Shown one piece after another: positions 39,142 to 51,553 of a DNA stretch of 51,649 nt. This DNA is from Paracoccaceae bacterium (GTDB taxonomy: Bacteria > Pseudomonadota > Alphaproteobacteria > Rhodobacterales > Rhodobacteraceae). Both the position numbers and the translations under genes were made by a program. Location of the stretch: positions 1-51,649 of the forward strand of contig WOZM01000009.1 in NCBI GenBank assembly GCA_011620265.1, in the 5' to 3' direction. Numbering within the stretch: the stretch's first letter is position 1; each line of letters begins with the position of its first letter. The notes below the pieces were generated by a model. The model had not been told where the DNA came from. It worked only from the letters and a program-made list of their open reading frames with translations, and made no database searches.

Positions 39142-42100
39142 TCAAGGGATGGTGGTGCGCAACAGGGCATCCCTCACGATGTCGCGAGGCAGCGGCATCA
39201 GCGCGCCGCTCTTCGTCCAGAGGATCGCGGTCTCGACCCGACGGCCGGGATAGATCCGTTCCAGCATTGCCGCATAGGCGCCCATCTGCCTCAGGATACC
39301 ATCGGGCACGTCCTCGGCGCGGGCGGGAATGACCGCGTTGGACTTGTAGTCGATGGCGAGAACGCGGTCGGCCTCGATCAGCAGCCGGTCGATCGTCCCG
39401 TGCACGATCCGCCCGCCGAGCGCGTCGAGCGGCGCGGTCAGTTCGACCTCGCTCAGCGCCCCCGTCCCCAGAAGCGTTGCCATTCCGGTAGAGCCCAGAA
39501 CCAGGCGCGCCTCGTCCAGGATCGTCTCTGTCTCGGCCGAAGACGCGATGTCGTCGCCGGTCGCCATGAGCGCCGCCGCGATTGCCGGCCAGTCGGCCTC
39601 GGGCCAGAGCGGCAGGTGTTCGAGCAGAAGATGCAGCCAGGTGCCGCGCCGCTTCGCGGTTTCCTCGTCCAGCCCCTCTTCGCCCGGCAGCGCCTTGGCC
39701 CCGCCTAGCGCGGAGGGCGAGAGCGGCGCTTGCGGCCCCGCCTGCGCCGGCGCGCCCGCGCTTGACCAGCCGGGCAGGCCCACCGGAGGCTCGGTCGTCG
39801 CCGGCCGCCGCGGCAGGTCCGCCGGCCACGCGCCGTATTCGTGGCGCCGGCCTGTGCCGCCCTCGGTCGCGAGGTCGACGGCGCCGGCCTTCTCGACCGC
39901 CTCGGCGGCAAGCGAATACCAGCTCTCCGCCCCCTCCCCCACATCGCCCGCGCCGCAGACGATCAGCCAGACCTCGGCCCGCGTCATCGCGACATAGAGA
40001 AGCCGCATGCGTTCCTCGCGCTGACGCTCCTGCATGGCGCCGCGAACCGCCGCGATCCCGGCGGGGCTTTCGTCGGCCCGCGTCTTCCAGACCGGGTGCC
40101 CGTCGAGGAGGAAGATCTCGTCGCGCGGATCGTCGCGCCGCTTCGCCGTATCGGGCAGGATGACGATCGGCGCCTCGAGCCCCTTGGCGCCGTGGACGGT
40201 CATCACCCGGATGGATTTCGAGGCGGAATCGAGCCGTCTCTTGATCTCCACATCGTCGGTTTCCATCCAGACGAGGAAGCCGGTGAGGCTCGGCACGTCC
40301 GACTGCTCGAAGGCCAGCGCCTGGTTGAGGAGCGCGTCGATCCCGTCCTCGGCCTCTGGCCCGAGGCGGGCGATCAGCCGGTCGCGGCCGCCATGCCGGG
40401 TCAGCATCCGCTCGATGAGGTCGTAGGGCCGCAGGAAGTCGGCCTGGTCGCGCAGATCGTTCAGCATCGCCAGCGTTTCGGGATACGCCCCGGCGCGGTC
40501 ACGCAGCGCGGCCCAGAGATAGGCGTCGCCCCGTCCCTCGGCAAGTTCGTAGAGCATGCCCTCGGACCAGCCGAAAAGCGGCGAGCGCAACGCGGCGGCG
40601 AGCGACAGGTCGTCCTCGGGCGTGGCGAGGAACCGCAGGAGCGCGCCGAGATCCTTCACCGCGAGTTCTCCGCCGATCTTCAGACGGTCAGCGCCGGCAA
40701 TGTCGAGCCCGGCCGACTTGCAGGCGCGAATGATCTCGAAGAAGAGGTCGGAGCGGCGCTGGACGAGGATGAGGATATCGCCCTCGTCGACCGGCTTCAG
40801 CCCCTTCTTCGTCGGGATGCACGCGCCCGCGTCGATCATCCGCCGGATCCCGGCGGCGATGCGGCGGGCGAGGACGACGGTCTCATGCTCGTCCGGAAGG
40901 ATGTCGGTCGGGTCGTACCAGTTCTCCGCCTCGGGCTTGTCGGCCCTGGGGATCGCCGGCCAGATGTCCACCCGCCCCGGCAGGTCGGCATGGAAGGCCA
41001 GGTGCTTCGGATCGCCGCCGAGGCCGCGATTCACGCGCTCGTCGAAGGTCAGGTCGACCACCCTGAGGACGGCGTCGGAGGAGCGGAAGGAATGCTCGAG
41101 TTCCAGCCGCTGGAACCCGATGCCGACCTCGGCGTATTTCGTGGCGAAATGGCTCTGCATCGCGTCGAACGCGGCAAGATCGGCGCCCTGAAAGGAATAG
41201 ATCGACTGCTTCTTGTCGCCGACGACGAAGACCGTCCGCCCCTGCCCCCGCGCGCTTTCGCCCGAGGTGAAGTCGTCGGCCAGACGCTCGACCACCTGCC
41301 ATTGGCCCGGACTGGTGTCCTGCGCCTCGTCCACGAGGATGTGGTCGATCCCGCCGTCGAGCCGGAAGAGCACCCAGGCCGCGACACCGGGATCGGAGAG
41401 AAGCCGGGCAGAACGGGTGATGAGGTCGTCGAAGTCGAGCCAGCCGCGTTCGGCCTTGCGCGAAGCGTAGCGCGGCAGGAACGCGGCGGCGAAGCGGTGC
41501 AGCGCCAGCGTCTTCTCGGCGGCGGCCAGTGCATTGAGTCGGCCGAGAGCCTCTGCCACCCGGGTCATCAGCCCCTGGAAGTCCTCCAGCCACGGGCCAA
41601 TCGCCTTCTGTGCGCTCTTGGTTGGCACGGTGCCGGTCTTCGCCTCTGCCCGGAACCCGCCCCCGCTCTGCCGATAGAGGAACACCGAGCACAGCGCGTC
41701 GAAGGCTTCGGCCGGGCGGCCCGCCGTGTCGAGGCCGGCAAGCAGATCGGCCAGTTCGACCATCGTCTTGCTTTGCGTTCCGAGGATCGGGACGACGGCG
41801 GCAAAAAGCGCGGGTTCCGAGCCGTCGAAGGCGGTCGCGACGCCTGCGGCGGCGTCGAAATCCGCCGGAAGGCCGAAGAGCCCCAGCGCCCCCGCCCGGT
41901 CGAGCGGGTTGGAAAAAGCGTCACTCAACCGGCACAAAGTGCCCAGCAGGCCGGAAAGATCGTCGCCGGAGAAGATCCCGGCGATGGCGTCGACCGCGGC
42001 CACGTCGCCGCCCGCGGCCAGTTCCTCGACGATCTCGTCCCGCATGAGTTTCGCCGCCCGGTCGTCCATCTCGGTGAAGTCCGGCGAGATGCCGGCCTCG

Positions 42101-42507
42101 AGCGGAAAGCGGCGCAGGAGCCCGGCGCAGAAGGAGTGGATCGTCTGGATCTTCAGCCCGCCCGGCGTCTCGATCGCGCGGGCGAAGAGGCGGCGGGCGC
42201 GCAGGAGCGTATCGGCGTCGATGCCGCCCTCGACGCCCAACTCCCCCAGCGCCTCGCGCAGCTTCGGCTCCGGCAGCATTGCCCATGCGCCGAGCCGCTG
42301 AAAGAGACGGTTCTGCATCTCGCTCGCCGCCGCCTTGGTGTAGGTCAGGCAGAGGATGCGCTGCGGCTCGGTCCCGGCCAGAAGCAGCCGCGCCACACGG
42401 TCGATCAGGACACGGGTCTTGCCCGATCCGGCATTCGCCGAAAGCCAGGTGGACTGCACCGGGTCCGCCGCCTGGACCTGCCGTTCGCTCGCCGCCGACC
42501 GCGTCAT
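39142..42507 (-). CDS. addA: Double-strand break repair helicase-nuclease AddA
   Basis: This is the UvrD-type helicase and nuclease subunit of AddAB, which resects double-strand breaks to load RecA. The 1121-residue protein has Walker [10 protein letters not shown] near residue 26, motif Ia [11 protein letters not shown], motif [15 protein letters not shown] near residue 392, motif [14 protein letters not shown], and a C-terminal RecB-type nuclease with LAIDYKSN. The ATG at 42505-42507 was chosen by the ATGA overlap with addB and by [10 protein letters not shown] leading into the conserved region. Confidence 0.95.
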
Positions 42508-45449
42508 CCGACATCCTCCGGCTCGGGCGGGTCGCCCATCTGCCACTCGCCGAAGCGGGCAAGGTGGTCGTAGTCGCCCTCCATCCGTGCCGAGAAGACC
42601 GCCCGGCGCGAGGCATAGCCGGTGGCGCGGCGGTCGTAGGAGACGATGAGGCGCGCGAGTCCGTCCCAGGTCCGGGCAAGGATCGTGTCGTCGATCGTGA
42701 TCGCCCGCTCCTCGCCCGCGCCGCCGATCCGGATATAGGTCGCGCCCTCGACCTCGCGTCTGCCGAGCGTCGGGAAGCCGCCGCGCTCCGCCATCGCCGC
42801 TTCCAGAAGCAGCTGCTTGTCGAAGGCTTCCTCCTGCTTCCCGGTCGGCGGCTTTCCGGTCTTGTAGTCGTAGATATGGACCCGACCGTCCGCCAGAAGG
42901 TCGATCCGGTCGGGCCGGGCGGTGAGGATGAAATCGCCGGTTTCCAGCGGGACAGAGCCCTTTTTCTCAAGGATCACCGGCCGACCGAGGCGCGCGCGTT
43001 CGGCCTCCGCCACCGCGAACCTGTCGGCGATGCGGCCAAGCCGCGACAGCCAGACGCGCTGGGCGGCGGGCCAGGGGATCTCTTCGCCGAGCCTCGCCTC
43101 GGCAAGCGTCAGCAGGCGCCGGGCTGCGGCCTCCTCCGTTTCCCCTTCGGGGCGGTCGAGAATGAACTGCTCCATGATCTTGTGCAGGACCGTGCCGCGT
43201 TTGCGGGCGTCGGGCTCGGCCCGCAAGGGATCGAGCGGGTAGAGCCGCAGGATACGGCGGACATAGACCTCGTAGGGATCGCGGATCAGCGTCCGGATGC
43301 CCGTGACCGGAAGCTCGCGCGGGCGCTTGTCGACCGGCGGGCGCGGCGCGGGGCGGCGCGCGGCGGCCATGCGTTCCGGCGTCTCGAGTGCGCGGGCGAG
43401 GCGCAGCCAGCCTTCGCCGCGGTCGCGCATCGCCTGCAGCGCCTCCGCCCCGCCCCGGTCCGGCAGGCCCTGAATCAGGTTCGTCAGCCGGGCGACCCAG
43501 CGCGAGGCGACGGTCTCCGCCTCCTCGTCGCGGACGGCGCGGGTCAGCACGACCTCGGCGGCGCCCGCCGCCTGCTGGAAATCGTGCGCGGAGAGGCCGA
43601 TCTGGCGTTCGGGCAGCAGGAGCCCTGCCTTCAGACGCATCTGCCGCGAAAGCCACGGATCGGGCGCGGGGCTGGCGGGCCAGATCCCCTCGTTGAGCCC
43701 GGCGAGGATCGCGAGGTCGGCCCCGCCCGCCCGCGCCTCGAGCGTGCCCTGGATCGCGATCAGCGGATGCGCGGAGGCGGCCTGCCGGACGCTGCCTTGT
43801 GACAGGAGCGCGGTCACGAGGTTGCTGTAATCGGATGGTCGGAACGCGCCGCCATTCGGCGCCTCGGCCACCAGTTCCGCCATCGTGCGGAAGGCGAGTC
43901 GACCCGCCTCCTCGCGCCAGAGTTCGCTGGCCTCGACCTGGCCTCCGGGACCGGCGGCAAGGGCGCCGGCAAGCCTCAGATGCGTGTCTGCAAAGGCGGA
44001 AAGTGGCCTTTCGTTCGAATCGGCGCTGCCGTCGAGGGTCCGGGAAATCCACTCCGCCCAAAGCGCCCGCCCACCGCCGCCGGTCTTGCCGGCCCAGGCG
44101 TGCAGGTCGGCCCCCGTCGGGAAGGGCGGGCCGAAGCGGCGGAGCGACAGTTCGAGGTCACGGGTATGGCGAAGGTGGTTGCCGCGGTCGCCGGCCCCGG
44201 TCGCCGCCAGCGGATGCTTCAGCACGACAAGAAGCGCCTCGGCCGTCAGGGGCCGCCCGATCAGCGCCGTGACATGGCGAAGGAACCGCCCCGGCGCCGA
44301 CTGGACGAGCGGCAGTCCGGCGCTGTCGTCGGGCACGATCCCCCAGCGGTCGAGCGCGGCGGTGACGCGGCGCGTGAGCATCCGGTCGGGCGTGATCAGC
44401 GCGGCGCGCTGCCCGTCCTCGGCGGCCTTGCGGAGCCGGAGCGCGATGGCCAGCGCCTCGGCCCGCGGCGAGGGCGCCTCGATCAGGGTGAGGCCGGCGG
44501 TGGCGGGGCCGAGCGGGCCGAGCGCCGCCCCGTCCGACATCCATTGGTCGGTGACCGGCGCCGGCCGCAGCGCCAGCGAGAGGAGCCGGTTTCGTTCGGG
44601 TGCCGGCGCCGCGTCGTCCGACCACGGGCGGACCGATCCCGGCGTCGTGTCAAGCATCCGGCAGAGGTTCAGGAACCGGTATTGCGGATGATCCTCGGAT
44701 GGGATCGGGCCGGAACAGAGACTGTTCCAGGCGCGATCCGGCATGTCGAAGTCGAAACCGGGCAGCAAGATCGCACCCTGCGGAAGCCGGGCCACGGCCT
44801 CCATCAGCACTTGCGTCGCCCCGCGCGAGCCGGTGGAGCCGGCGACGATCACCGGATCGGCCGGCGGCCCGCTTTGCCACCCAAAGGTCAAGGCCTCCAC
44901 CACCCGGCGCTGGCGCGCCTCGGGGTCGGGCGCGCTGTCGGCATCGAAATAGCGGGCGATGATGCGGATGAAGGCAAGGCTGCGCTCCCAGTGCGCGGCG
45001 TGGTTCTCGGCCAGATCCGCCGCCTCCAGTGCCGCCGGGTCGATGCCTTCGCCCTGCATCTCGTCCATCAGCCGGGCGAGGCCGTCGGCGAGATCGAAGA
45101 TCGCCGAGCGGGCCGCGAAATCGCGGTCGCGGCGCACCAGTTCGGCGACCAGCCGGGCGAGGTCGAGCCGTCGCCGCAGCGGCGGAACGGCGGGCGGCAG
45201 GCCCGGCAGCGGATCGCGGCCGAGATCGGTGATGAGCCGCAGGCGCGGCAGGAAGCGGGCGCCGTGGCGGTCGAAAGCGGCCCGCACCGCCCGCTGCATC
45301 CGCGCGGTGTTGAGAAATAACGTGACCCGCGCCATCGCCTCGGGCGGCGCGTCCGCCATCCGCGCGACGAGGCCACCGACGAGCGCCTTGGGAAAGTCCG
45401 CGCCGGGGGGCAGGCCGAAGAGGCGCGGCGTGGGGGAGGGCTCAAACAC
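42504..45449 (-). CDS. addB: Double-strand break repair protein AddB
   Basis: This is the second subunit of AddAB, with an inactive helicase-like body and a RecB-type nuclease domain near the C-terminus (RGTVLHKIMEQF; HIYDYKTGKPPTGKQ). The chosen GTG at 45447-45449 gives 981 residues and starts VFEPSPTPRLFGLPPG, overlapping the murU stop by 8 nt. I see only two cysteines (LCSGPIPS, LNLCRML), both in the N-terminal half, so the iron-sulphur cluster of firmicute AddB is absent. Confidence 0.92.
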   Translation of the reverse strand: MFEPSPTPRLFGLPPGADFPKALVGGLVARMADAPPEAMARVTLFLNTARMQRAVRAAFDRHGARFLPRLRLITDLGRDPLPGLPPAVPPLRRRLDLARLVAELVRRDRDFAARSAIFDLADGLARLMDEMQGEGIDPAALEAADLAENHAAHWERSLAFIRIIARYFDADSAPDPEARQRRVVEALTFGWQSGPPADPVIVAGSTGSRGATQVLMEAVARLPQGAILLPGFDFDMPDRAWNSLCSGPIPSEDHPQYRFLNLCRMLDTTPGSVRPWSDDAAPAPERNRLLSLALRPAPVTDQWMSDGAALGPLGPATAGLTLIEAPSPRAEALAIALRLRKAAEDGQRAALITPDRMLTRRVTAALDRWGIVPDDSAGLPLVQSAPGRFLRHVTALIGRPLTAEALLVVLKHPLAATGAGDRGNHLRHTRDLELSLRRFGPPFPTGADLHAWAGKTGGGGRALWAEWISRTLDGSADSNERPLSAFADTHLRLAGALAAGPGGQVEASELWREEAGRLAFRTMAELVAEAPNGGAFRPSDYSNLVTALLSQGSVRQAASAHPLIAIQGTLEARAGGADLAILAGLNEGIWPASPAPDPWLSRQMRLKAGLLLPERQIGLSAHDFQQAAGAAEVVLTRAVRDEEAETVASRWVARLTNLIQGLPDRGGAEALQAMRDRGEGWLRLARALETPERMAAARRPAPRPPVDKRPRELPVTGIRTLIRDPYEVYVRRILRLYPLDPLRAEPDARKRGTVLHKIMEQFILDRPEGETEEAAARRLLTLAEARLGEEIPWPAAQRVWLSRLGRIADRFAVAEAERARLGRPVILEKKGSVPLETGDFILTARPDRIDLLADGRVHIYDYKTGKPPTGKQEEAFDKQLLLEAAMAERGGFPTLGRREVEGATYIRIGGAGEERAITIDDTILARTWDGLARLIVSYDRRATGYASRRAVFSARMEGDYDHLARFGEWQMGDPPEPEDVG

Positions 45450-46140
45450 CGGCGGCCTCGCGCAGGAGCGCCTCGGCGAGCGGGATCGCCTCGGGCCGGC
45501 CGACATCGCACCAGCCGCCGTCATGGACAACGCCGAAGAGCCGTCCGTCCGCCAGCATCCGGTCCCAGAGGAGGTTGAGCGAGAACACCCGATCCGGGAT
45601 CGCGGCCAGGCCACCGGTCGCGACGATCTGGGCGCCGGTATAGACGAAGCTTCGCCCCCGTCGCAGGCGGCCGTCAGCGTCGCGGTCGAAATCGCCGGGT
45701 CCGGCATGGCCGGTCGCGCGGCCCGAGGGCACGAGAAGCATCAGCCCGTCCATGCGCGCGGGATCCCAGGCGGCACGAAGCTCGGCCAGCGGATTGGCAC
45801 CGGTCCAGACCGCATCGGTGTTGAGCGTGAAGACCGGCCCGTCGCCGAGAAGCGGCAGCGCCTTCCGCAACCCGCCGCCGGTTTCGAGAATCGTCTCTGT
45901 TTCGTCGGAAAAGCGGATGTTTCCCCGCCCGGAAAGATGCGCCGTGATCCGATCGGGGAGATAGTGGAGATTGGCGACGACGCGCCCGATCCCGGCCCCG
46001 TCCACCTGCGCCAGCGCGTGATCGACGAGCGCCCGGCCGCCGACCTCGATCAACGGTTTCGGCCGGTCGGCGGTCAGCGCGCCCATCCGGGCGCCGAGAC
46101 CGGCGGTGAAGAGCATCAGAGCGTCGGGTGTCGTCCGCAT
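45442..46140 (-). CDS. murU: Nucleotidyltransferase, MurU-like (N-acetylmuramate-1-phosphate uridylyltransferase)
   Basis: This is a sugar-phosphate nucleotidyltransferase of 232 residues with the signature LFTAGLGARMGALTADRPKPLIEVGG (residues 10-35; loop GxGxRM and PKP) and the metal-binding FTLNTDAVW near residue 108. Next to AmgK it probably makes UDP-MurNAc from MurNAc-1-phosphate in peptidoglycan recycling, by-passing de novo synthesis. The ATG at 46138-46140 lies inside amgK (25-nt overlap). A mannose-1-phosphate guanylyltransferase role is the alternative. Confidence 0.86.
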   Translation of the reverse strand: MRTTPDALMLFTAGLGARMGALTADRPKPLIEVGGRALVDHALAQVDGAGIGRVVANLHYLPDRITAHLSGRGNIRFSDETETILETGGGLRKALPLLGDGPVFTLNTDAVWTGANPLAELRAAWDPARMDGLMLLVPSGRATGHAGPGDFDRDADGRLRRGRSFVYTGAQIVATGGLAAIPDRVFSLNLLWDRMLADGRLFGVVHDGGWCDVGRPEAIPLAEALLREAAGV

Positions 46141-47135
46141 TGGTCCTTGATCCTTTGAACCCGCTCCGGCGTCGGCGCCGGCAGGCCTTGATGCACCGCC
46201 CGGGCAAGATCGCCAAGTGCCGGATGGGCGAGGTTGCGCCCGAGGTAGCGCCAGACACGCGGCAGATAGTCGAGGTAATGCGCCTTGCCGTCGCGGAGTG
46301 TAAGCCGCGCGAAGATGCCGGCGATTCGCAGCGCGCGCTGGGCGCCGAGAAGGGCGTAGATCGCGCCGAAACCGGCCGGGTCGAGCGCCTTGGCCACGGT
46401 ATAGCGCGCGACCATCGCCGTTTCGGTCGCCTCCGAAACATCGCGGCGCGCGTCCTGGAGAAGCGAGACGAGATCGTAGGCCGGATGGGTCGCGACCGCG
46501 TCCTGGAAGTCGAGAAGCCCGAGACGGGCATGGCCGGAGCGCTCGGGCAGCCAGATCAGGTTCTCGGCATGGAAATCGCGGAGCGAGGTCACGACCCTGC
46601 CGTCGCCGAGGCGCTCGAACGCCGCGCGGATCAGGTCCGGCACCGCGTCCGCCTGCGGGTTTCCGGCCGCGCGGACCCCAGGCAGATACCAGCGCGGCAT
46701 CAGCGCGACGAGTTCGGCAAGGCCGGATCCGTCGAGCGGGGCGACGAAATCCGGGGCAGGGTGCCGGTGCAGGTCGCCGAGGAAATCGGTCGCGGCGGCG
46801 TAAAGCCCGGCCTCGCGCGACGGATCGGCGGCGAGGAGGTGCGCGAAAAGCGCGTCGCCGAGGTCTTCGAGGAGGAGAAAGCCCTCCGTGTGGTCTTCGC
46901 CCAGGATCTCCGGCGCGGAATAGCCGTGGCCCGACAGCCACCGGGCCATGCGGGCGAAGCGTTCGGTGCTTTCGCCGAGGCCGGGCGGCGCATCCATCAG
47001 CACCGCCTTCCGCCCGTCGAGGGCCAGCCGTTCGTAGTGCCGCGCAGAGGCGTCGCCGGCCAGCGGCGCGCGCCCGGCCGCGCCCCAGCCCGCTTCGCTC
47101 AGGAAGCGCGCGGCAAGGGTGCGCCGGTCAGTCAT
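46116..47135 (-). CDS. amgK: Anomeric N-acetylmuramate/N-acetylglucosamine kinase AmgK-like
   Basis: This is an aminoglycoside-phosphotransferase-fold kinase of 339 residues, with the catalytic loop SLRDFHAENLIWL near residue 200 and the metal-binding LLDFQDAVATHPAYDL near residue 221. In the AmgK-MurU recycling route it phosphorylates MurNAc at C1. The ATG at 47133-47135 starts MTDRRTLAARFLSEAG and overlaps tsaE by 8 nt. The pairing with the nucleotidyltransferase supports the specific assignment. Confidence 0.86.
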   Translation of the reverse strand: MTDRRTLAARFLSEAGWGAAGRAPLAGDASARHYERLALDGRKAVLMDAPPGLGESTERFARMARWLSGHGYSAPEILGEDHTEGFLLLEDLGDALFAHLLAADPSREAGLYAAATDFLGDLHRHPAPDFVAPLDGSGLAELVALMPRWYLPGVRAAGNPQADAVPDLIRAAFERLGDGRVVTSLRDFHAENLIWLPERSGHARLGLLDFQDAVATHPAYDLVSLLQDARRDVSEATETAMVARYTVAKALDPAGFGAIYALLGAQRALRIAGIFARLTLRDGKAHYLDYLPRVWRYLGRNLAHPALGDLARAVHQGLPAPTPERVQRIKDQCGRHPTL

Positions 47136-47646
47136 GCCGATGCCATTCGGCCGACGCGAGGCTGTCGAGAACGGGTCGCCAGCGCGGATCGCGCGCGGAT
47201 ATACGGGCGCTGCGCGCCATCGCATCGGCACCGGGCGCGATGTCCACGCGAAGCGCGGTATCCGGTGTCATGTCGCCGAGCCGGTCGGGCCATTCGACAA
47301 GGCAGATCGCCCGCTCGAACGCCTCGTCCAGCCCGAGTTCGGCCACGTCTTCGGCTGCCGTCAGCCGATAGAGGTCGGCATGCCAGAGCTCCACCCCGTC
47401 AAGCTCGTAGACCTGCACCAGCGTGTAGGTCGGCGACGGAACATCCTCCATCCGGCCGAGCGCCTTGAGCCGGGCCTGGATCAGACTGCGGCAGAAATGC
47501 GATTTTCCGGCGCCGATGGGCCCGTCGAGGAGGATCACGTCGCCGGCTGCGAGCCGTGGCGCGAGCCACCGCGCAAGGGCGGCGGTGGCGTCGGGCGTCG
47601 GCAAGTCGAGCCGGGCGGAAAAGGGGGGCGGCGCCGTGTCGTTCAT
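47128..47646 (-). CDS. tsaE: tRNA threonylcarbamoyladenosine biosynthesis ATPase TsaE
   Basis: This is the ATPase of the TsaBDE complex that makes t6A37 in ANN-decoding tRNAs. The 172-residue protein has Walker A GPIGAGKSHF near residue 42, SPTYTLVQVYE near residue 71, the LWHADLYRL block near residue 87, and VEWPDRLG. It overlaps amgK by 8 nt. It lies 54 nt after the DivL-like gene, probably in one operon. Confidence 0.95.
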   Translation of the reverse strand: MNDTAPPPFSARLDLPTPDATAALARWLAPRLAAGDVILLDGPIGAGKSHFCRSLIQARLKALGRMEDVPSPTYTLVQVYELDGVELWHADLYRLTAAEDVAELGLDEAFERAICLVEWPDRLGDMTPDTALRVDIAPGADAMARSARISARDPRWRPVLDSLASAEWHRHD

Positions 47647-47700
47647 GGCGCGATTCTGACCGCCCTCGTCCCCGCCCGCAAGGCGATAGCGCGCCGTCGC

Positions 47701-49305
47701 TCAGGCCCGGACGGTTTCGCCGGCGGGAGCGGTGTCGTGGCGGTGCCGGCGGGTGCGGCGCACCAGCGGGCGGTCGGGCGCGATGCGTTCGAACCCCACG
47801 AGCGTCGTCCCGCCGGACAGCGGCACGATCCGGCACGCAAGCGTGCCCCCTGCCGCGAGCGGCACGTCTGCGGTCCATTCGGCCCGTTCGTCCATCGTCG
47901 TCACGAAATCGCGGATATCGCCGAGCACCGGGTTCGGCCGCGTCAGTTCCTGCCAGTGGCGGAGCGAATCCATGATCGTCATGGTGCCGAGCGTCAGGCC
48001 CGGCTCGACGCCCCAGAGATCCTCGTAGGCGGTGTTCGACAGGATCAACTCGCCCGCCGGCGAGAAGACGGCGATCGCCTCGTCCAGCGTATCGACCACC
48101 GACTGGCCAAGCTCGATCTCGGAGCGGAAGCGGCGGGTCAGGGCGATCTCGGCGGTGATGTCCTCGATCAGGAAGGCGACCGCGCCGTCGGGGTGGGGCC
48201 GGCCGGTGACGTGATAGGTCTGCCCCGACGGCAGCGTCCAGGTGTCTTCGTAAAGCCCGCTCGCCGCCGCCTTTTCGAGATCGAGCATCTGCTGGCGCCA
48301 GCTGCCATAGTCCTTCGGCTCCGGGATCACCTGCACCTCGCGCAGCCGGTCGAGAAAGGCGAAAAGCGTCGGCCGGGCGGACAGGAACTCCGCCCCGGCC
48401 GAGGTCAGGTCGACCAGCGCCGGGTTGAAGAGCGCGAGCTGCCGCTGACGGTCGAAGATCGCGAGGCCGATGGGCAGGTGGGCGAAGGTCTTGGTCAGGG
48501 TCTGGATGAACTCGCGCAGCGATGTCTCGGCCCTGACCACCGTATCTGCGGGCAGCGCGAAGTGAAGCCGGCCGCCGGTCGCCGGGTAGGAATGGCATTC
48601 GTACCAGTGCCCGCCCGCGCCATCCGCCGAGGCGAGCTTCTTGCGCCTGGAGCCGACGGCCGGGTTCGCGGAGCATTCGGGAAAGAGCGCCGGAACCGGC
48701 CAGGTCATTTCCCCTTCCTCGCCGTCGCCCTGTTCGGCGACGCAATCGAGATAGGCATGGTTGGCCCAGATCACCGCGCCATCGCCATCGGTCCGCCAGA
48801 CCGGAAACGGCGCGGCCGCGACGGTTTCGCGCAAGGAGGCAAGCTCTGCCTCCTGCGCCCGCTGGCTGAGCCCGTCGACGAGCACACCCTGCCCTTCGAC
48901 CGACAGATCGGTGACCGTCAGCCGCGCCATCTGGCCAAGCCATTCGGCCCGGACGCGGAACCCGTCATCGTCCTCGCCCCGCATTTCCACCTCGCCGTGT
49001 TCGGCGAGCCCGCGCATCTCGGATTCGAAGCCGCGCAGGCGCTGGGACAGGTATCCCGAAAGTCGGGTCCATTCGGAACCGGGGCCGGGAATGGCACCGA
49101 GAAGCGCGCGTCCGGAGCTGGTCGCATCGACAAGCTCGCGGTCGTCGAAGAGGAAGATCGCCTGCTCGAGCGGCGCGCCGAGCTGCGACAATCCCGGCGT
49201 CTTCCTCTTTCGCTGCGGCACGGCCGACAACAACAGCAGGGCGACCAGCGCGGCGGCGATCGACGTCGTAACGACGACAGCCGCAAGCATCAGCGGTGTA
49301 ATCAT
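47701..49305 (-). CDS. divL: PAS-domain protein, DivL-like, without a kinase domain
   Basis: This is a 534-residue membrane-anchored protein: one N-terminal helix (about 4-27), an N-terminal sensory region, and three PAS-like stretches (about 153-250, 285-390 and 395-510, e.g. AAAPFPVWRTDGDGAVIWAN, HLPIGLAIFDRQRQLALFN, TLDEAIAVFSPAGELILSN). It ends without any HisKA or ATPase domain. In Caulobacter divL lies next to tsaE. Rhodobacter capsulatus DivL is a PAS protein acting on the CckA-ChpT-CtrA pathway. The upstream CtrA and DnaA boxes support this identity. Confidence 0.65.
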   Translation of the reverse strand: MITPLMLAAVVVTTSIAAALVALLLLSAVPQRKRKTPGLSQLGAPLEQAIFLFDDRELVDATSSGRALLGAIPGPGSEWTRLSGYLSQRLRGFESEMRGLAEHGEVEMRGEDDDGFRVRAEWLGQMARLTVTDLSVEGQGVLVDGLSQRAQEAELASLRETVAAAPFPVWRTDGDGAVIWANHAYLDCVAEQGDGEEGEMTWPVPALFPECSANPAVGSRRKKLASADGAGGHWYECHSYPATGGRLHFALPADTVVRAETSLREFIQTLTKTFAHLPIGLAIFDRQRQLALFNPALVDLTSAGAEFLSARPTLFAFLDRLREVQVIPEPKDYGSWRQQMLDLEKAAASGLYEDTWTLPSGQTYHVTGRPHPDGAVAFLIEDITAEIALTRRFRSEIELGQSVVDTLDEAIAVFSPAGELILSNTAYEDLWGVEPGLTLGTMTIMDSLRHWQELTRPNPVLGDIRDFVTTMDERAEWTADVPLAAGGTLACRIVPLSGGTTLVGFERIAPDRPLVRRTRRHRHDTAPAGETVRA

Positions 49306-49340
49306 GTCAAATCCGTTCTTCCCGTTGAGGTCTTTGCCTC

Positions 49341-49349
49341 TTATCCACA
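49341..49349 (+). promoter_or_regulatory. Perfect DnaA box upstream of divL
   Basis: TTATCCACA is the exact DnaA-box consensus, 36 bp before the divL start codon in the 108-bp gap after regB. Because the box lies so near the start, DnaA binding could affect divL transcription. Its isolation from the candidate origin argues for a regulatory role. Confidence 0.7.
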
Positions 49350-49365
49350 GGTTTCACCTATTGGG

Positions 49366-49380
49366 TTAACGGGGCGTTAA
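49366..49380. promoter_or_regulatory. Perfect CtrA box (TTAA-N7-TTAA) upstream of divL
   Basis: TTAACGGGGCGTTAA matches the full CtrA site TTAA-N7-TTAA, and also the TTAAC-N5-GTTAA form noted in Rhodobacterales. It lies 61-75 bp upstream of the divL start, where it could cover a -35 region. A full match is unlikely by chance in such GC-rich DNA. Confidence 0.78.
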
Positions 49381-49413
49381 TAGTGCAACCTTTTGGCGAA
49401 TTGATGGCAAATC

Positions 49414-50823
49414 CTACGAAACGATCTGCCGGTTCTCGCCGAGCCCTCCGGTCGCGACCGTCTCGATCTTCGACCGCGGCCAGATGACCTCGACCACCGC
49501 GCCGGAACGCTCGGGACGCTCCTCCTCGGTCAGGAACGGGTCGGAGCCGTTGGTGAAGCGCAACTCGGCGCCGGTGCGTTCGAGAAGCGTCTTGGCGATG
49601 AAGAGGCCGAGCCCCATCCCGTCGTATTCGGGGCGCTTCGCGGCATCGTCGTCGCGCCGGCGCGGCAGGAACGGGTCGCCGATCCGGCCGAGCAGATGCG
49701 GCGGAAAGCCTTCGCCGTCGTCGGCGATGCGGATCGTCAGCGCCTTGTCGCTCCATTCCGCGTCGACCCAGACGCCGGAGCGGGCGAAATCGACGGCGTT
49801 CTGGATCAGGTTCCGCAACCCGTGGATGATCTCGGGCTGGCGCAGGATCTCAGGCTGTCGGCCGGCGCCGGGCGCGTCGTCGAGATCGAAATGCAGTTCC
49901 TTGCCGCGACCGAGATGCGGTTCGGCCGCCTCGCGGATGACGGCCGAGACCGGGGCCGAACGCAGATGCAGGTCCTGCTTTCCCGCGCGGCCCATCGACC
50001 GCAGGATATCGCGGCAGCGGTCGGCCTGTTCGCGAATCAGTTCGGCATCGGCCCGCAGTTCCGGTTGGTCCGCAAGGTCGCGGGCAAGCTCGTTGCTGGT
50101 CAGCTTGATCGTGGCGAGCGGTGTGCCAAGCTCATGCGCCGCCGCCGCGACGACCCCGCCGAGATCGGTCAGCTTCTGTTCCCGCGCGAGCGCCATCTGG
50201 GTGGCCAGAAGCGCGTCGCCCATGACGTGGATCTCGAGCGCCACCCGGCGCGCGTAAAGCCCGAGGAATACCACGCCGATGACGATGGCAAGCCAGAAGC
50301 CGAACTCGAAGATCGCCGGCACGGTGATCAGCGTGCCGTCGAGCGTCCGGAGCGGTACGTGAAGGAAGGCGACGAGCGTCACGAGCGCGATGGTGACGAG
50401 CCCGACGAAGACCGTGGCGCGGGTCTGCAGCGCGGTCGCGGCGATGGTCGCGGGCGCGAGGATCAGAAGCGCGAAGGGATTGTTGAGCCCGCCGGTCAGG
50501 AAGAGCAGCAACGACAGTTGCAACGTGTCGAAGAGCAGCGTCAGCATCGCGCCGGCCTCGCTCAGCCGGGTATTCTCGGGAAAGGCAAGGGCCGCGATCA
50601 CATTCGCGAGAACGGCGGCGCCGACGACAAGAAGGCAAAGGACGATGTCGAGGTCGATGTCGTAGTATTTCCAAGCCACCAGGATCGCCGTGGCCTGACC
50701 GAAGATCGCCGTCCAGCGCAGGAGGACCAGCGTCCGCAGCCGCACCCAGTCGCCATGCCCGATCCGCGCGGCGAAGGCGCCGTTCGGGAGAGGGGGCTGG
50801 GAAACGGGGGCCGGCGGGTTCAT
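49414..50823 (-). CDS. regB: Redox-responsive sensor histidine kinase RegB/PrrB
   Basis: This is the membrane kinase of the RegB-RegA global redox system (photosynthesis, respiration, nitrogen and carbon fixation in relatives). From ATG 50821-50823 it has 469 residues. Six hydrophobic segments occupy about 30-200. The quinone-binding motif GGLNNPF is at 111-117, the H-box AAAAHELGTPLATIKL has His230, and the redox Cys270 sits in ADRCRDILRSMG. The 40-residue His-Cys spacing matches the R. capsulatus pair (225/265). The ATPase region ends with GMGLGLFIAKTLLERTGA. It is divergent from senC. Confidence 0.96.
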   Translation of the reverse strand: MNPPAPVSQPPLPNGAFAARIGHGDWVRLRTLVLLRWTAIFGQATAILVAWKYYDIDLDIVLCLLVVGAAVLANVIAALAFPENTRLSEAGAMLTLLFDTLQLSLLLFLTGGLNNPFALLILAPATIAATALQTRATVFVGLVTIALVTLVAFLHVPLRTLDGTLITVPAIFEFGFWLAIVIGVVFLGLYARRVALEIHVMGDALLATQMALAREQKLTDLGGVVAAAAHELGTPLATIKLTSNELARDLADQPELRADAELIREQADRCRDILRSMGRAGKQDLHLRSAPVSAVIREAAEPHLGRGKELHFDLDDAPGAGRQPEILRQPEIIHGLRNLIQNAVDFARSGVWVDAEWSDKALTIRIADDGEGFPPHLLGRIGDPFLPRRRDDDAAKRPEYDGMGLGLFIAKTLLERTGAELRFTNGSDPFLTEEERPERSGAVVEVIWPRSKIETVATGGLGENRQIVS

Positions 50824-50917
50824 CACGGGGGTCCTGTTGTCGCATTCCGGCGCTTCCGAATTGATAGTCGGCGCATGATCGGCGATCAATGGCGGCGCAA
50901 GGAATAGGGGGCCACGG

Positions 50918-51553
50918 ATGGCTGTATCCACCAAGAGCTATGCCGTCGCGGCGGTATCGGTCGCGGCAATCTTCATGATCGCGATCTATCAGTACTCGCG
51001 CAACGGCGGTGAGGACCGCTTCGCGCCCTGCCGGAGCAGCGCCGTCTCGGGCGGCGCCGGCGCGATCGGCGGACCCTTCACCCTGACCGACGAGGACGGG
51101 CGCCAGGTGACCGACAAGGACGTTCTGGCGGGGCCGAGCCTCGTCTATTTCGGATATACGTTCTGTCCCGATATCTGCCCGACCGACACCGCCCGCAATG
51201 CCGAGGTCATAGATGCGCTGGAAGAGACGGGATATAACGTCACGCCGGTCTTCATTTCCGTCGATCCCGCCCGCGATACGCCCGAAGTCCTGAAGGAATG
51301 GACGGAATACATCCATCCGAAAATGGTCGGCCTCACCGGAACGCCGGAACAGATCGGATCGGTCGCGAAAGCCTACCGGACCTATTACAAGGTGCCCGAA
51401 AATCCGACCGACGAATATTACATCGTCGACCACATGACCCAGACCTACCTGATGCTTCCCGAATACGGCTTCGTCGAGTTCTTTTCCCGCGAGGATACGC
51501 CCGAGGACATGGCCAATCGCACCGCCTGCTTCATCGACGCCGCGATGAAGTGA
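50918..51553 (+). CDS. senC: SCO1/SenC/PrrC family copper chaperone
   Basis: This membrane-anchored periplasmic protein delivers copper to cytochrome oxidase and is linked to redox signalling. The 211-residue protein has an N-terminal helix (about 8-25) and the copper-binding motif FCPDICPTD (Cys83, Cys87) with His172 in VDHMTQTYL. It lies between divergent regB and co-directional regA, the standard Rhodobacter order. Its ATG follows the AGGAATAGGGGG stretch, a loose Shine-Dalgarno. Confidence 0.95.
   Translation: MAVSTKSYAVAAVSVAAIFMIAIYQYSRNGGEDRFAPCRSSAVSGGAGAIGGPFTLTDEDGRQVTDKDVLAGPSLVYFGYTFCPDICPTDTARNAEVIDALEETGYNVTPVFISVDPARDTPEVLKEWTEYIHPKMVGLTGTPEQIGSVAKAYRTYYKVPENPTDEYYIVDHMTQTYLMLPEYGFVEFFSREDTPEDMANRTACFIDAAMK

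Follow-up and report, generated by a model that had tools for sequence, protein, structure and literature searches.

The 108-bp gap between regB and divL, at the right end of the window (the whole 51,649-nucleotide stretch of Paracoccaceae DNA analysed here), is very likely a CtrA-activated promoter for the short form of DivL that operates in a feedback loop, with the DnaA-box match in the same gap being incidental. This model is built on the motifs, conservation, geometry and gene identities obtained in this analysis, and from these we infer that CtrA binds here and activates divL, and which sign the loop has. In the model, phosphorylated CtrA would bind the full site at 49366–49380, which spans roughly −38 to −24 relative to the predicted transcription start, and would assist RNA polymerase at a weak −10 element (49349–49354). 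More DivL would then alter CckA activity and in turn CtrA phosphorylation, and the loop would be closed jointly with a CtrA site before cckA.

The features of the locus are collected in Table 1. All genes from regB to addA were found on the minus strand, with the divL ATG at 49305. For the AmgK-like kinase the top NCBIfam model was AmgK, with 262 bits, under its cut-off of 500. The genome (G000; 3,908,192 bases in 309 contigs), on which all genome-wide motif counts were made, encodes one CtrA, over the family cut-off, and one DnaA. Its named relatives comprise two Defluviimonas genomes and three MAGs labelled Rhodobacterales, Alphaproteobacteria and Rhodobacteraceae.

Table 1. Genes, motifs and predicted promoter elements from regB to addA, in window coordinates
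Feature	Position	Strand	Remarks
regB, redox sensor kinase	49414..50934	-	NF045988 over cut-off; ORF as listed, start codon uncertain
Genus-level conserved element TTCGCCAAAAGGTTG	49386..49400	-	Directly upstream of CtrA site; from a profile over 21 promoters of the genus
CtrA full site TTAA-N7-TTAA, palindromic, TTAACGGGGCGTTAA	49366..49380	.	Exact match; −38 to −24 from predicted divL start
−10-like element AAACCT	49349..49354	-	A at second and T at sixth place; putative
DnaA-box match TTATCCACA	49341..49349	+	Exact; spans −7 to +2 of predicted start; probably incidental
Predicted divL transcription start (A)	49342	-	Inferred from A at −11 and purine start of R. sphaeroides promoters (PMC6180460)
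Small hairpin GAGG-CAAAGA-CCTC	49327..49340	-	+3 to +16 of predicted mRNA; four pairs; part of genus
divL, short PAS-only form, 534 aa	47701..49305	-	PAS-type Pfam matches
tsaE	47128..47646	-	PF02367 and TIGR00150 over cut-off
AmgK-like kinase	46116..47231	-	PF01636; listed ORF, start probably further downstream
MurU-like nucleotidyltransferase	45442..46119	-	PF12804
addB	42504..45707	-	TIGR02786 over cut-off; ORF as listed
addA	39142..42546	-	TIGR02784 over cut-off

We identify the 534-aa product as the short form of DivL reported from Rhodobacterales (PMC9430884), because its domains are of the PAS type only and because it is homologous to long proteins with a tyrosine in the H-box. Pfam searches returned PAS-type matches and found neither HisKA nor HATPase, and zero NCBIfam models matched the protein. 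Long homologs from other alphaproteobacterial families aligned to it across the PAS part. Five of these, from five families, were fetched among 18 class-level genomes with a match, the first ATG being taken as the start. In all five, the sequence SYxLRxPL lay inside the HisKA domain and a tyrosine replaced the kinase histidine. A tyrosine at the phospho-acceptor place is what we take to be the mark of DivL. In none of the five long genes did the 400 bp next to the first ATG contain an exact CtrA site.

The exact TTAA-N7-TTAA that the earlier note had described upstream of divL was confirmed at 49366–49380, where it lies 61–75 bp 5′ of the divL ATG. The motif is above chance genome-wide: the exact full site occurs at 12 places, compared to 2 for the pattern read backward. 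Within the window there were two CtrA sites with at most one mismatch versus 0.41 expected, a number reached by 5 of 100 shuffles. Conservation was followed in 107 divL orthologs, made up of 27 loci (21 from the same genus) and a further 80 that were fetched. The 27 were those used of 30, with L042, L053 and L054 omitted for a missing N terminus, and the 80 were the best-ranked of at least 180 matching genomes, with an alignment start at or before residue 47 and not yet in the set. L020–L024 (three duplicate genomes, and L023 and L024, also with exact sites) stand outside the 107.

We found that the CtrA box is kept in relatives, a check that the earlier note had proposed: the 300 bp preceding the divL match contained an exact full site in 100 of the 107 orthologs (87 genera), and the other seven promoters had sites with one mismatch (six) or two mismatches (L067). 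Alternative half-site spacings from 0 to 15 were each seen in 0–3 of the 107 promoters, and zero exact sites were found in a distal control region 400–700 bp upstream of divL, which is partial for L039 with its 469 bp of upstream DNA. The extended consensus of the 100 exact-site promoters was TTAACC-N3-CG-TTAACCATT. The gap appears by eye to be more AT-rich than the flanking genes, and both motifs could in principle be chance AT-rich matches within it. Such a reading is scarcely credible given a half-site spacing of exactly 7 in 100 of the 107 promoters, and for the CtrA site a chance origin is refuted by the conservation. The connection between CtrA and divL is a very constant regulatory link across the genomes examined, and through it CtrA probably boosts its own helper, DivL. 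Elsewhere in the genome, three consecutive TTAA half sites at G000:C207:26320-26345 (L008, L009) form two overlapping exact full sites. For the remaining genomic CtrA sites and DnaA boxes the ORFs were ambiguous in the GC-rich DNA, and a gene was assigned for the cckA site only.

In CtrA-activated promoters of Rhodobacter sphaeroides the CtrA site is reported to lie near −35, with an A at −11, and transcription to begin at a purine (PMC6180460). Transferred to the window, this geometry would put the divL start at 49342, with the CtrA site extending from −38 to −24. Counted from the CtrA site, A at +27 was combined with T at +31 in 52 of 100 divL promoters, versus 5% at other offsets. The CtrA site therefore appears to sit near −35 of the predicted start with a −10 at fixed distance, matching the R. 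sphaeroides arrangement. No consensus sigma-70 promoters were found in 47000–49600, and no CcrM site (GANTC) was found in the regB–divL gap. The DnaA-box match was rejected as the −10: the family-wide signal consists of positions +27 (A) and +31 (T), and TGTGGATAA contributes to that hexamer with its first base alone (+31).

This geometry also bears on the direction of control. CtrA can repress as well, and in C. crescentus its repressing half sites are reported to overlap the −10 (PMC6180460), so that CtrA might repress divL in a negative feedback. We consider this unlikely, since the site here is a full one near the −35 of the inferred promoter, which is the place of activating sites, and since divL was reported to be down, not up, in the Dinoroseobacter shibae ctrA mutant (PMC4046655). 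Activation of divL by CtrA is thus the reading that we prefer. Adjoining the CtrA site on its upstream side, a second element, TTCGCC-N-AAAGGTTG, was conserved in the majority of the 21 promoters from the genus; for example, position −18 is C and position −7 is T in 18 of them. Its form in the window, TTCGCCAAAAGGTTG, is the sole exact match in the genome. As a genome-wide motif the element was rejected: when as many as two mismatches were allowed, it had 33 matches and the control 30.

The exact DnaA box that the earlier note had placed in the divL promoter was confirmed as a string at 49341–49349, 36–44 bp 5′ of the divL ATG, and the gap between the CtrA and DnaA motifs was found to be 16 bp rather than the 17 bp given there. 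The match overlaps the predicted start, reaching from −7 to +2, and bound DnaA should therefore repress; DnaA on TTATCCACA could in this way block the CtrA-activated start and so connect divL in this species with the initiation of replication. The box is a perfect consensus with only 7 copies in the genome, it lies over the predicted start, and DnaA is encoded. Furthermore, if the 7 boxes fell uniformly over the genome, the expected number lying no more than 50 bp from one of the 12 CtrA sites would be only about 0.0025, a figure to be read in the light of the pair having been chosen after reading the sequence and of both motifs favouring AT-richer gaps.

We nevertheless regard this dual control as improbable. 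The exact box is as frequent in the genome as its backward control (7 versus 7). The window has three boxes with at most one mismatch where 1.6 would be expected; 21 of 100 shuffles had at least as many, and the other two boxes are distant (5489 and 22438), leaving no second nearby box at that threshold. When conservation of the box in relatives was checked, as the earlier note had also proposed, the exact box was found upstream of divL in 1 of the 107 orthologs, namely the present genome, and it was not intact in the two closest congeners, which share 88% and 86% protein identity and read TGTGGTTAA and TGCGGGTAA at this position. Boxes with at most one mismatch within 250 bp upstream were present in 7 of 107, a result equalled or exceeded by 11% of 150 permuted motifs, and 7% of the permuted motifs had an exact match in at least one of the 107 divL promoters. 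A conserved DnaA box was rejected by these promoters and controls. The small pairing expectation favours a DnaA pairing but, without conservation, does not outweigh the rest, and the match is probably private to this genome, coincidental and non-functional.

The analysis thus separates the two halves of the double control of divL by CtrA and DnaA that the earlier note had suggested as a feedback. The CtrA half is supported by evolution, by the promoter geometry and by the expression reported for D. shibae (PMC4046655); the DnaA half found no support, and a link of divL to replication through DnaA should not be carried forward without a binding test. Counting against our model of an incidental DnaA box in a CtrA-activated promoter are the seven divL promoters without an exact CtrA site, its absence from the five long divL genes, and the perfection of the DnaA-box match itself.

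CtrA sites elsewhere in the phosphorelay were compared in 30 genomes from the divL ortholog set. In these, divL had an exact site in 28 and a site with at most one mismatch in 29, and cckA had an exact site in 29. The name cckA was given from the best NCBIfam CckA matches, of 523 and 439 bits (cut-offs 1000), together with a PAS-HisKA-HATPase-receiver architecture. Upstream of ctrA, 1 of 28 genomes had an exact site and the remaining 27 a site with one mismatch (G019, with no match, and G236, with a partial match, were left out). The deviation at ctrA was constant, a G replacing the first T to give GTAAC-N6-TTAA in 25 of the 28 genomes (loci L135 and L139–L165). As a negative comparison, chpT had a CtrA site within 400 bp upstream of the HPT domain in 1 of 29 genomes (G116, with a weak match only, was left out). 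Taken together, CtrA sites stand before divL, cckA and ctrA and are as a rule absent before chpT. The cckA gene of G088 (L212), the sole exception among the 30, has no CtrA site with at most one mismatch.

We tentatively propose that the CtrA circuit of the host family is wired with graded sites, perfect at divL and cckA and one base off at ctrA. Phosphorylated CtrA would then need a smaller dose to switch on its activators than to switch on its own gene, and this would set a threshold for on/off decisions in these bacteria. Doubtful as it may be, this dose hypothesis is directly testable through the contrast between the divL/cckA and ctrA sites.

The surroundings of divL are also largely constant, with regB upstream in 29 of 30 loci (not L052) and tsaE downstream in 29 of 30 (not L037). 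In 27 loci no more than about 250 bp separate the tsaE start from the aligned end of divL; the gaps are longer in L043 and L046. No terminator-like sites were found in 47000–49600, and it is possible, judging from the sequence, that the divL promoter reads through to tsaE-amgK-murU-addBA. In L037 (G018), where no tsaE was present in the 1.5 kb downstream of divL, the operon is broken or rearranged.

The small hairpin at the start of the predicted mRNA was evaluated in an alignment of 15 of the 21 same-genus promoters, picked after inspection. Standard pairs made up 88% of its pair cells, a level reached by 12 of 500 shuffles, and a covariation score as high as the observed one came up in 1 of 500 shuffles and in none of the slid controls. 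The controls were mixed, however: the two pairs changed on both sides were equalled in 179 of 500 shuffles and in one slid control, and the number of pair types in 177 of 500 shuffles and two slid controls. The single-sequence fold mildly beat shuffles (z −1.4, 15/200).

The link between CtrA and divL is already in print, and what is added here is the scale of its conservation and the contrast between the divL/cckA and ctrA sites. In the literature covered by titles and abstract beginnings, there was no report of a constant ctrA-site deviation, nor of a DnaA box at a Rhodobacterales divL. Other regulators may also act at this promoter, as binding of FnrL near divL has been suggested in R. capsulatus (PMC7232146).

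A close comparison is D. shibae, in which divL expression was reported to be reduced in ctrA, cckA and chpT mutants (Wang 2014; PMC4046655). CtrA sites were predicted there before ctrA, cckA, divL and clpP, and clpP was unresponsive in every mutant despite its site, so that a CtrA site alone is no proof of control. Sites at divL, ctrA and cckA are common to D. shibae and the present family, and that study reports no chpT link. Its divL homolog was described as weakly conserved, with further putative homologs in the genome (PMC4046655), and a later paper uses the name divL for two D. shibae genes, Dshi_3433 and Dshi_3346 (PMC6473078). The D. shibae divL (Dshi_3433), compared here by gene name, has expression data, whereas the present divL has conservation.

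For the Rhodobacterales of cluster B, Brilli 2010 predicted that CtrA controls itself, cckA and divL (PMC2877005). This predicted control, a DivL without a kinase domain and the isolation of the circuit from DnaA are shared with our system. That study differs in covering fewer genomes and in using matrix-based prediction, and the window has an extra DnaA box, absent from the cluster and read here as chance. The short DivL of Rhodobacter is likewise reported to be PAS-only, without a pseudo-kinase domain, and active in the CtrA pathway (PMC9430884, PMC6473078; Westbye 2018 through citations), and DivK is reported to be absent in Rhodobacterales (PMC9430884). The ortholog in the window has the same PAS-only composition without a pseudo-kinase domain and is characterised from its sequence. 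Finally, the R. sphaeroides flagellar promoters have in common with the predicted divL promoter the site near −35, the A at −11 and the purine start. Their sites are reported to be partly atypical, with 6-bp spacing, and to have been mutated and mapped, whereas the divL site is a perfect full site known from sequence.
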